DNA of 64,000 bases from Halorhabdus salina (lineage in GTDB: Archaea > Halobacteriota > Halobacteria > Halobacteriales > Haloarculaceae). Shown here one piece after another: positions 40,860-43,715 of this stretch. The position numbers and the translations under genes were made by a program. A model generated the notes under the pieces. The model saw only the letters and a program-made list of their open reading frames with translations, did no database searches and had not been told where the DNA came from. Numbering within the stretch: the first letter of the stretch is position 1; the number at the start of each line of letters is the position of its first letter. The DNA lies in the NCBI RefSeq assembly GCF_013839425.1, contig NZ_JACDNP010000002.1:249453-313452 (forward strand). Direction: 5' to 3'.

Positions 40860-41903
40860 ATGGAACTGGTCCTCGAAGACGGCGTCGTCCGTGGCAACGG
40901 CGCGGCCCGCGAGCAGTTTTACGACTCGCGAGGGTACGGCCGGCCGGTCGCGGAGGGACTCGAACTGGCTCCCGTCGAGGCAGCCCATCTTCTGTATCGG
41001 GGTGACGTCGTGTCCATACAGGACGCGATGAACGGAGATGCCCTTGATTTCCGGGCGCTACTCTCTTCGGCTGCTGTCTCCGAGATCGATTTTCTCGTTT
41101 ACAAGGATCTGCGGGACCGTGGGTTCTACCTCTCGCCGGCACGGGAGGGCTGGGTCGAGGATCCTGCCGGTGTGGATTTCGTCGTCTATCCTCGCGGGAA
41201 CGGTCCCTGGGACGACGAGGTGGCCTATCGTATGCGAGCCATCAGCGAGCGGACGGCCGTTTCGGCGGCGTCGCTCGGCGAGGGTGTCCTGGCGGTCGTC
41301 GACGAGGAATCGGCGATCACGTATCTCGAAACCGATCACCCGGCGATTGAAGGCAGCTCCGACATCGACCCCCCAACGGGTGTCGCTGCCGACCTGCTCG
41401 GTGATCGGGTTCTGGTCTGGGAACCCCCGTCGAGGCTCTACCACGAGGGGTTCTACGGACAACCGCTCGACGACGACACAGGCAAGCCGCTACAGCTTTC
41501 GCTGGTCGAGGCCGCATCCCTGGCCGGGCGTGACGTCCTCGATGTCGCCGGGGGCGAGGACGCGATCGTCGAGTGTGGCCGTGACGTCGAAGGGGAACGA
41601 TTTGACCGCCGACTGGCAGTCTACCGCACTCTCCGCGAACGCGGCGTCGTGCCCAAGACGGGCTACAAGTTCGGCGCGGATTTCCGGACCTACGCCGACG
41701 TCGATAACGTTGACTCACTCGGCCACTCCGAGTTACTCCTTCGAGTGTTGCCCGCCGAGCACGCCTTCACACCACGGGATATTGCGCTGGACGTGCGCCT
41801 CGCTCACGGCGTCCGCAAGCGGATGGTGTTCGCGCTGGTCGCGGCCAGTCACGGCGAAGAGACCCGGATCGAGTGGCTCGAAGTCGGCCGACTGACGCCG
41901 TGA
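40860..41903 (+). CDS. endA: tRNA-splicing endonuclease EndA
   Basis: 347 residues, the double-length form with two EndA repeats. The C-terminal repeat carries the catalytic Tyr in GYKFGADFRTY, His in LGHSELLL and Lys in AHGVRKRM; the N-terminal repeat (YKDLRDRGFYLSPAREG) lacks them. This is the fused type seen in haloarchaea, acting as a homodimer on bulge-helix-bulge introns of tRNA-Trp, tRNA-Met and 23S rRNA precursors. The tryptophanyl-tRNA synthetase gene follows. Confidence 0.95.
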   Translation: MELVLEDGVVRGNGAAREQFYDSRGYGRPVAEGLELAPVEAAHLLYRGDVVSIQDAMNGDALDFRALLSSAAVSEIDFLVYKDLRDRGFYLSPAREGWVEDPAGVDFVVYPRGNGPWDDEVAYRMRAISERTAVSAASLGEGVLAVVDEESAITYLETDHPAIEGSSDIDPPTGVAADLLGDRVLVWEPPSRLYHEGFYGQPLDDDTGKPLQLSLVEAASLAGRDVLDVAGGEDAIVECGRDVEGERFDRRLAVYRTLRERGVVPKTGYKFGADFRTYADVDNVDSLGHSELLLRVLPAEHAFTPRDIALDVRLAHGVRKRMVFALVAASHGEETRIEWLEVGRLTP

Positions 41904-41914
41904 GGGATGGAAAA

Positions 41915-41923
41915 CCATTAAAG
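41915..41923 (+). promoter_or_regulatory. Probable TATA box of the trpS transcript
   Basis: CCATTAAAG is about 28 bases before the ATG of the leader ORF at 41947, so the mRNA probably begins at or near that ATG. Confidence 0.5.
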
Positions 41924-41946
41924 CCTCCTGGTGGAGACGTACGCAC

Positions 41947-42027
41947 ATGGCGTCCACTTCCCCCGACGTTCGCCGCTGGCATCCCTGGGAAGTGGACAGT
42001 GTCGCCGTCGCCGGCTGGCGGGCCTAA
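41947..42027 (+). CDS. Trp-containing leader peptide upstream of trpS
   Basis: A 26-residue ORF beginning MASTSPDVRR, with Trp at positions 11, 14 and 24 (WHPWE and GWRA). Three Trp in 26 residues is far above chance for a normal protein. It starts at a position expected for a leaderless mRNA. TCGCCC and GGGCGA form a hairpin (42032-42046) five bases after the stop, and trpS begins 77 bases after the stop. The arrangement suggests that ribosome stalling at Trp codons affects the hairpin and trpS expression. The sequence pattern is observed; the mechanism is inferred. Confidence 0.45.
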   Translation: MASTSPDVRRWHPWEVDSVAVAGWRA

Positions 42028-42031
42028 CTCG

Positions 42032-42046
42032 TCGCCCGGCGGGCGA
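42032..42046 (+). terminator. GC-rich hairpin between leader ORF and trpS; possible attenuator
   Basis: TCGCCC-GGC-GGGCGA forms a six-base stem with a three-base loop. It lies five bases past the leader stop codon. A short pyrimidine-rich stretch follows. It could affect transcription or translation of trpS. Confidence 0.35.
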
Positions 42047-42104
42047 TGCTCCCTCCGCTTTCTCGGCCCGGCTTCACGCAGTAATCACCTAAGATACGAC
42101 AGCA

Positions 42105-43715
42105 ATGACGCGAGACACACACCCCGACGACGAATCGACTGACAGCCAGCAGGAAGGAGTGACGGCCCCGCATCTCCGCACTGACGGCGGCCCAGCCGCC
42201 GGCCCAGACGACACGACGCTTGACCCGTGGGGCTCCTCGACGGTCGCTGATTACCGGAATCTCTTCGAGGAGTTCGGCATCGAGGCGTTCGACGAACTAC
42301 TCGCCGAAGTGCCCGATCCGCACTATCTGATGCGCCGGGGCGTCATCTTCGGCCACCGGGATTACCGGCCGGTCGCCCGCGCGATGCGCAACGGTGAGCC
42401 CTTCGCGGTGCTCTCCGGGTTCATGCCCACTGGGGACCCCCACATCGGTCACAAACTCGTCTTCGACGAGATCATCTGGCATCAACAGCAGGGCGGAGAC
42501 GCCTACGGCCTGATCGCCGATCTGGAGGCTCACGCCGCCCGCGGGCTCACCTGGGACGAGATCGACGAACACGCCCGGGATTACATCCTCTCGCTGCTCG
42601 CGCTGGGCTTTGATCCCGAGGAAGGGACGCTCTACCGGCAATCAGAGAACCGAGAACTGCAGGATCTGGCCTTTGAACTCGGCGCGGAGGCACGCTTCGC
42701 CGAATTCGAGGGGATCTACGGCTTCGACGGCGAGACCGACGTCAGCCACATGCAAAGCGTCGTCACGCAGATCGGTGACATCCTCTACCCCCAACTCGAA
42801 GAGCCAAAGCCGACGGTCATCCCTGTCGGCCCCGACCAGGACCCCCACATGCGACTCGCGCGGGACGTGGCCGCCCGGATGCGGTACTTCGGCGTCACCG
42901 AGGCCTATGCCTCCTTCGAGACTGACGACGACGAGCGCGAACTGCTTGCCGAGGCCTACGAGACCCTTTCCGAACAGCATCCTGACCAGACCGTCCGGTG
43001 TGGCGACGCCGCCACGTACCTCGACAACGAGCGGGATCGCGACGCGAACGACCCCGACGCGATGACCATCGATCGGGTTATCACGATGCTCCGGGAGGCT
43101 GGCAAGGAACCCCTCCGACCCCGGGTTCGGTTCCTCGATCGAAACGCCACCGAGACGGCCTTCGAAGGGCTGATCGAGGCCATCGACGGCGAGAAGCGCG
43201 TCTACGACGAACACATCGACGCCTTCGAACTGGACCACGCCGACGCCGAGGAACTCGCCCGCGAGGTCGAACTCGAACACGGCGGCTACGGCTTCCTGGC
43301 CCCATCGTCGATCTATCACCGCTTCATGACAGGCCTCACTGGCGGGAAGATGTCCTCTTCCGTTCCGGCGAGTCACATCAGCCTGCTCGACGAGTCCGAG
43401 GAGGGCTACGACAAGGTCAAAGCGGCGACGACCGGGGGCCGGGAGACGGCCGACGAACAGCGCGAAAAGGGCGGCAAACCGGACGAGTGCCCGGTCTACG
43501 AGCTGTACGCCTACCTGCTTGCGGGCGACGACGACGAACTCGCGACCGAGGTCTACGAGGAGTGTGCCGGCGGCGAGCGGCTCTGTGGCGGCTGTAAGGA
43601 ACAGGCCGCCGAACTGATGGCACAGTTCCTCGAGGACCACCAGGAGAAACGCGACGAATGGGCTGATCGGCTGGACGAACTCGACATTTCGTTTGATTCG
43701 GATCGCAAGCGGTGA
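42105..43715 (+). CDS. trpS: Tryptophanyl-tRNA synthetase
   Basis: 536 residues. Class I motifs: PTGDPHIGH (HIGH) near residue 108 and KMSSS near residue 412. An N-terminal extension of about 60 residues and the insert near residue 310-400 are as in archaeal/eukaryal-type TrpRS, with NRELQDLAFELG and VGPDQDPHMRLARD as conserved active-site segments. The C-terminal CGGCKEQAAELM carries two Cys. It attaches Trp to tRNA-Trp, whose haloarchaeal precursor needs EndA, the gene upstream. A Trp-containing leader ORF precedes it. Confidence 0.95.
   Translation: MTRDTHPDDESTDSQQEGVTAPHLRTDGGPAAGPDDTTLDPWGSSTVADYRNLFEEFGIEAFDELLAEVPDPHYLMRRGVIFGHRDYRPVARAMRNGEPFAVLSGFMPTGDPHIGHKLVFDEIIWHQQQGGDAYGLIADLEAHAARGLTWDEIDEHARDYILSLLALGFDPEEGTLYRQSENRELQDLAFELGAEARFAEFEGIYGFDGETDVSHMQSVVTQIGDILYPQLEEPKPTVIPVGPDQDPHMRLARDVAARMRYFGVTEAYASFETDDDERELLAEAYETLSEQHPDQTVRCGDAATYLDNERDRDANDPDAMTIDRVITMLREAGKEPLRPRVRFLDRNATETAFEGLIEAIDGEKRVYDEHIDAFELDHADAEELAREVELEHGGYGFLAPSSIYHRFMTGLTGGKMSSSVPASHISLLDESEEGYDKVKAATTGGRETADEQREKGGKPDECPVYELYAYLLAGDDDELATEVYEECAGGERLCGGCKEQAAELMAQFLEDHQEKRDEWADRLDELDISFDSDRKR

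Follow-up and report, generated by a model that had tools for sequence, protein, structure and literature searches.

Can a ribosome reading a short upstream open reading frame (ORF) control the gene of an aminoacyl-tRNA synthetase in an archaeon? The question is raised by a locus of Halorhabdus salina, contained in the 64,000-nucleotide stretch of DNA that was analysed as a whole (the window, from whose first letter all coordinates are counted and on whose forward strand all its features lie), where an ORF with three Trp codons precedes trpS1, the gene for tryptophan--tRNA ligase (TrpRS). Leader-peptide attenuation is textbook knowledge in Bacteria. According to a transcriptome paper of 2014 (PMC4247193), attenuators and riboswitches were without direct in vivo support in Archaea, and no report of such a leader system in Archaea was found in the open-licence literature, the only literature covered. 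In this study we compare the locus with its counterparts in other haloarchaea and find that the likeliest reading, to which we assign a probability of about 0.72, is ribosome-mediated attenuation of an archaeal TrpRS gene, in which a shortage of Trp-tRNA would cause readthrough into trpS. All of the evidence on the leader is comparative and computational, with no transcript, ribosome-profiling or expression data behind the attenuation reading.

The trpS1 leader of Halorhabdus salina

The leader ORF MASTSPDVRRWHPWEVDSVAVAGWRA has 26 codons and occupies 41947..42027, with its ATG at 41947 and its TAA at 42025-42027, and its Trp codons 11, 14 and 24 start at 41977, 41986 and 42016. The gene proposed to be controlled, trpS1, follows at 42105..43715 (NCBIfam, 1023 bits, and Pfam), and the upstream neighbour endA (tRNA splicing endonuclease, 40860..41903; NCBIfam) stands outside the switch. 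BRE/TATA promoter elements of the leader transcript, GAAAACCATTAAA, were assigned at 41910..41922 by consensus match, without transcription start data. At many of the compared loci endA is directly upstream of trpS, and where a leader is present the trpS promoter lies between both genes.

The first-pass annotation of this DNA had described the 26-codon ORF with its three Trp codons, a TATA-like block upstream of it, a hairpin and trpS, all of which are in the sequence as described. It had proposed looking for the ORF and its Trp codons in relatives, and the comparison bears it out, the ORF and a Trp codon being kept in 6/6 congeners (where the ORF has identical length) and in 100/100 aligned leaders. 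Two of its details did not fully survive. While three Trp codons are present in the window, only codon 11 (41977..41979) is conserved in the genus: it is invariant there and aligns with the second W of the W-R-W found in relatives, whereas Trp14 (41986-41988) is Arg in all six congeners and Trp24 (42016-42018) is either Trp or Arg. A three-Trp sensor in Halorhabdus salina was thus dropped, and codon 11 is taken as the conserved sensor codon; with this single conserved Trp codon the Halorhabdus leaders are a weaker sensor than the W-R-W of their relatives. The hairpin TCGCCC-GGC-GGGCGA is likewise present at 42032-42046, but it is a local pairing that is not conserved, and it was abandoned as the switch in favour of two other helices (A and B, below) that comparative pairing supports.

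Counted from the start of the ORF, AT content in 100 leaders peaks at -30 to -26, A is enriched at -36 to -33 and WW peaks at -11, a spacing that the haloarchaeal BRE/TATA/WW (-10 element) consensus fits (PMC4983044). Leaderless transcripts are the commonest haloarchaeal type, at 72% (PMC4983044), and among the leaders compared there is no AT-rich TATA position between the leader and the start of the downstream gene. The annotation had held that transcription starting downstream of the ORF would refute its proposal; the conserved promoter is instead upstream, and the leader transcript is inferred, from sequence alone and without mapped 5' ends, to start at the first base of the ORF, which would then probably be read from a leaderless 5' end. 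A block resembling GCGAACGCTTTTTGCG, conserved upstream of trpS1 genes that lack the leader and operator-like in appearance, was rejected as a candidate, since it fits a haloarchaeal BRE plus TATA box.

Distribution and linkage to TrpRS genes

The TrpRS loci of named haloarchaea were compared first, before any model searches, and the same arrangement, with a hairpin loop that holds the Trp codons, was found in other genera, including Halorientalis pallida (leader peptide MAASDGWRWRWQNPPEADSLVTPAAR, then the stop) and Halapricum hydrolyticum (MASTSTDRWRWCWQAPEVDSLAAVTRRA, then the stop). Two covariance models were then built, R1 from 20 leaders and R2 from 100. R1 has matches in 164/391 genomes of Halobacteria and R2 in 165/391, or 158/391 at E<1e-5 (about 40% of the sample), although covariance-model E-values are rough. 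The positions of TrpRS genes were not given to the search, yet 98 of the 100 fetched leader matches sit directly upstream of one (trpS1 or trpS2). The leader-bearing gene is trpS2, a divergent TrpRS paralog about 34% identical and of the same enzyme family, in most of the fetched matches and the main trpS1 in a minority. The leader is present in 131 of the 135 genomes with trpS2, as against 27 of the 256 without it (Fisher p=2e-70, a value that ignores kinship, related genomes not being independent). Genomes of the window's genus are without trpS2 and carry the leader on trpS1. The four trpS2 genomes that lack the leader were read directly, and three of them have only a plain promoter upstream of trpS2.

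In a sample of 247 genomes across the phylum, 14 genomes matched, all of them already among the matches in the class Halobacteria, a search by leader model that is blind to analogues of other sequence. The Halorhabdus salina genome itself contains a single match to the leader model and none elsewhere, for example at the Trp biosynthesis genes. A further model, R3, restricted to the 3' half and aimed at leaders with other sensor codons, was run on 80 genomes and recovered the Trp leaders plus the few acetyltransferase and ABC cases already known, which implies that the module is essentially TrpRS-specific. No Rfam family reached its gathering score, either in the window or in the ten relatives examined, so that no known RNA family, T-box included, is matched.

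Several side observations concern the wider occurrence of these leaders. Leaders built in the same way, most of them lacking a Trp run (e.g. MRVASHPNMCGRHTEK and MSAPNASAGRSRERTVRSAA), precede GNAT acetyltransferase genes (L238, G272 C7:117609; L244=L218, G062 C2:2009705; L245, G243 C1:968841; L231=L173, G187 C72:66819), where the module may be reused with another sensor; one of the GNAT proteins weakly resembles antibiotic N-acetyltransferases. Another, MSATGLGPVLWHGSTVADSALA, is upstream of an ABC exporter gene (ABC_membrane, MsbA/SmdB-like; L243, G296 C1:1344111, minus strand) in a genome that also has a trpS2 leader. Three genomes hold two leader-TrpRS copies (trpS2-like) with one leader each (G368, L185/L200; G253, L206/L207; G248, L208/L210). 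The combination of trpS2 and leader is also found on plasmids, among them pHME505 of Haloferax mediterranei (113 bits) and pHl5678-2 of Haloferax larsenii (104 bits). The Haloferax mediterranei trpS2 has the tag E6P09_RS17035, and its leader lies at L254:3828-3965. Large plasmids carry trpS2 in several haloarchaea (L254-L259), some near integrase, transposase or universal stress protein genes, and in Halobaculum marinum (L259) trpS2 is without a leader. The plasmid location and these neighbouring genes suggest that trpS2 is mobile.

Two mutually exclusive helices and the proposed switch

Helix A is formed by codons 2-6 of the ORF paired with the segment 3' of the Trp codons, which places the Trp codons in its loop. 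In the window its 5' arm GTCCACTTCCC (41952..41962) pairs with the 3' arm GGGAAGTGGAC (41987..41997), an arm that pairing and covariation assign to helix A and helix B in common. Among the aligned leaders 95.7% of the helix A cells are paired and both sides have changed in 7/10 pairs; double-change cells number 99, against 33 in shuffles, and controls with the arms slid are 34-48% paired. The alignment was fitted to the model, though the arms are nearly gap-free.

Helix B joins the same 3' arm to the tail, GCTCMCT-YCGYTTYTC, and is lengthened by AGT...GCT pairs. In the window it takes the form of a long hairpin, in which 41988-42006 pairs with 42042-42062 and which competes with helix A: the left side of the extension, AGTGTCGCC (41998..42006), pairs with the right side, GGCGATGCT (42042..42050), and the tail segment TCCGCTTTC (42054-42062) pairs with the 3' arm. 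The conserved tail as a whole, GCTCCCTCCGCTTTCTC (42048..42064), is the proposed termination or processing tract, on the grounds of pairing and U enrichment, and the 3' end of the element is this U/C-rich tail near 42064 and not trpS. Contiguous pairing of at least 7 bp between a leader's own arm and tail is found in 90/100 leaders. It averages 8.0 bp, compared with 7.55 +/- 0.10 after an exchange of arms and tails between leaders (the maximum of 200 exchanges being 7.85, so that the observed value is above 200/200 permutations) and with 4.5 bp for shuffled tails. Extension positions 4 and 9 covary, with 69 paired where 53 and 46 are expected. Folding of the full sequence gives helix A in 89 and helix B in 10 of the 100 leaders, and once the 5' arm is removed helix B is the minimum-energy fold in 99/100. 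The leader thus has two mutually exclusive, covarying helices, with the caveat for helix B that the exchange test does not remove shared ancestry.

Between the two sides of the extension lies the apical part of hairpin 2, GGGCCTAACTC (42020..42030), a conserved loop that holds the stop codon TAA. In most relatives the loop resembles GGGCNTMACCC, and the CAGT and GCTC blocks are invariant. The apex GGGC-N-T-M-A-CCC is kept even where it is not the stop codon, and it may be a binding site or structural motif.

The effect of ribosome position was modelled with a footprint that extends from the P-site codon by 13 nt on its 5' side and 16 nt on its 3' side. Helix A is predicted in 91/100 leaders without a ribosome. 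Helix B is predicted in 97/100 when the first Trp codon occupies the A site, and helix A in 85/100 for a ribosome that has reached the stop codon of the leader. When the stall is at the first Trp codon, the 5' edge of the ribosome is at a median of nt 5 of the transcript and the 5' arm (about nt 6-15) therefore lies under the footprint, while 7 nt remain between the 3' edge and the 3' arm. In the window a stall at Trp11 fits this geometry, whereas one at Trp14 would cover the 3' arm. Switching of the leader structure by a ribosome halted at the regulatory codon is therefore shown in silico only.

The mechanism that we propose from these predictions would begin with a transcript start on or beside the leader AUG, and the ORF would thus be read from a leaderless 5' end. 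Given ample Trp-tRNA, the ribosome would pass the Trp codon or codons and reach the leader stop codon, helix A would form behind it, and the U/C-rich tail would be left single-stranded; at the exposed tail, about 45 nt before trpS, transcription would end or the RNA would be cut, the cutting probably by the aCPSF1/FttA machinery. If low Trp or inhibition of TrpRS made Trp-tRNA scarce, the ribosome would stall on a Trp codon and its footprint would mask the 5' arm, the free 3' arm and the tail would pair as helix B, and the tail would be hidden, allowing readthrough into trpS. Stalling and termination at the tail are here inferences, as is the sign of the response (stalling gives more TrpRS), which rests on the physiology of Trp-tRNA shortage and on the position of the Us inside helix B. 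Conditional transcription termination is the likeliest output, a detail in which our reading departs from the first-pass annotation.

The tail bears on this output without deciding it. A T run of at least 4 occurs in the tail of 25/100 leaders, against 0/100 in a control segment, and the tail is U-enriched; since such a run is present in only 25/100 and the window has just TTTCTC, termination at the tail is not established. Intergenic terminators of Haloferax consist of a T stretch plus a TC dinucleotide (PMC7237163), a motif that the U/C-rich tail resembles, and U tracts are a binding site of the termination factor aCPSF1 in Methanococcus (PMC8716108). An unlikely possibility, kept as a rival, is that the same sensor has another output, the leader governing the translation or stability of trpS mRNA, through ribosome access or tail processing, and not termination. 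The weakness of the T runs in most tails would agree with it, and the narrow distance from GCTC to the start of the downstream gene (median 58 nt, IQR 55-61) could suit coupling to translation. It sits poorly, however, with the exact sequestering of the U-enriched tail by helix B, and the switch has no obvious complementarity to the trpS start region in the few leaders inspected by eye.

The response could also have the opposite sign, with helix B as terminator and helix A as antiterminator, so that stalling would lower TrpRS. This was kept as a rival because a hairpin can terminate in Haloferax, where isolated hairpins are able to do so and one tested hairpin stopped 59% of transcripts (PMC7237163), and helix B is a very stable, long, GC-rich and terminator-like stem that ends in a U/C tract. 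The Us of helix B are nevertheless within the stem and not 3' of it, and less TrpRS during a shortage of Trp-tRNA would make little physiological sense; we regard the reversed sign as improbable.

Inferred translation of the leader and comparison with known systems

The proposed attenuator further depends on translation of the ORF, which is inferred from comparative evidence only. An in-frame start (88 ATG, 12 GTG) is found in 100/100 aligned leaders, each of which has one or more Trp codons in the loop, usually as W-R-W, and at least two Trp codons are present in 90/100. Between the start and the 3' arm, TGG is distributed over the three frames as 230:37:9, with Trp making up 16.7% of residues. 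The start was picked to maximise Trp, but 96/100 starts are at one of two fixed positions of the model. The Trp codons of W-x-W remain constant, and the codon between them changes (Arg, Gln, Cys, Pro or His). Loop lengths go in steps of three (20, 23, 26, 29, 32, 35) in 92/100 leaders, and off-phase loops occur in 5 of the 9 leaders with a stop before the 3' arm, compared with 3 of the 91 others (p=8e-5); such a loosening of phase after an early stop is expected of a translated frame. The commonest position of the leader stop is the apex of hairpin 2 (52/100). Coding constraint on the leader ORF is thus met as far as comparison can establish it.

This evidence also counts against a structured RNA that a protein reads, for instance TrpRS or some other RNA-binding protein, and whose ORF would be incidental. 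Such an RNA would explain the conserved apical loop and the invariant blocks, but the universal in-frame start and Trp codons, the triplet-phased loops and the relaxation of phase after an early stop all need translation, and there is no Rfam match; we give the idea very little credence. A functional Trp-rich microprotein encoded upstream of trpS would account for the conservation of the ORF but is scarcely credible, as residues beyond W-x-W are not conserved, in nine leaders the stop comes directly behind the Trp codons, and the common C-terminal ADS/VDS is only a consequence of the RNA arm. The control of TrpRS by charged tRNA-Trp through a leader ORF, as the first-pass annotation had put forward, hence gains strong support from the Trp codons, the in-frame loops, the covarying two-state RNA and the near-perfect linkage to TrpRS, while its mechanism remains without experimental proof. 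Those defining features of ribosome-mediated attenuators that can be tested on sequence are present in the leader, the transcript start upstream of the ORF and the conditional terminator standing apart as inferences from the promoter consensus and the tail.

Among bacterial ribosome-mediated attenuators, the haloarchaeal leader is by analogy most like that of trpRS1 in Streptomyces coelicolor, an auxiliary, indolmycin-resistant TrpRS whose ribosome-mediated leader is said, after Vecchione and Sello in 2010 (a study that PMC4787780 cites), to answer low Trp-tRNA. In both a leader with Trp codons can stand before an auxiliary TrpRS, the haloarchaeal trpS2 also being a second TrpRS. Unlike the Streptomyces system, which has a bacterial RNA polymerase and an intrinsic terminator, the haloarchaeal one has a putatively leaderless ORF, no bacterial-type terminator and another architecture, and no homology between them is established. 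With E. coli trpL it shares a leader peptide with Trp codons and exclusive hairpins switched, as predicted here, by ribosome position. The E. coli trp attenuator has a 3:4 terminator hairpin followed by a U run, whereas the haloarchaeal tract of U and C forms part of the alternative helix, the gene encodes TrpRS and no biosynthetic enzyme, and the host belongs to the Archaea. The T-box leaders of Firmicutes also control aminoacyl-tRNA synthetase genes by tRNA charging, but the proposed haloarchaeal sensor is an ORF plus a ribosome, with no tRNA-binding T-box. Within the Archaea, TrpY represses the trp operon of Methanothermobacter, and DNA-binding proteins are the means of archaeal Trp regulation that PMC6737238 describes; like the proposed leader, TrpY is an archaeal control that answers tryptophan, but it is a repressor acting on DNA at promoters and the haloarchaeal element is an RNA leader.

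We would put forward only tentatively, and with rather less than even confidence, the broader idea that this is the Archaea's own form of leader-peptide attenuation, in which a leaderless ORF senses Trp-tRNA and a U/C tract is hidden from or exposed to the 3'-end-cleaving terminator aCPSF1/FttA in place of a bacterial hairpin, and in which the module with other sensor codons before acetyltransferase and ABC-exporter genes suggests an inducible inhibitor-resistance regulon. The occurrence of the leader in about 40% of the sampled Halobacteria genomes, together with the covariation and the coding evidence, makes the question of archaeal attenuation directly testable, and Haloferax is usable for the test, as the trpS2 on pHME505 of Haloferax mediterranei carries the leader. 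If the attenuator reading is true, it would need coupling of transcription and translation in archaea and would give them a sensor of tRNA charging, and it would offer a natural test of regulated archaeal termination.
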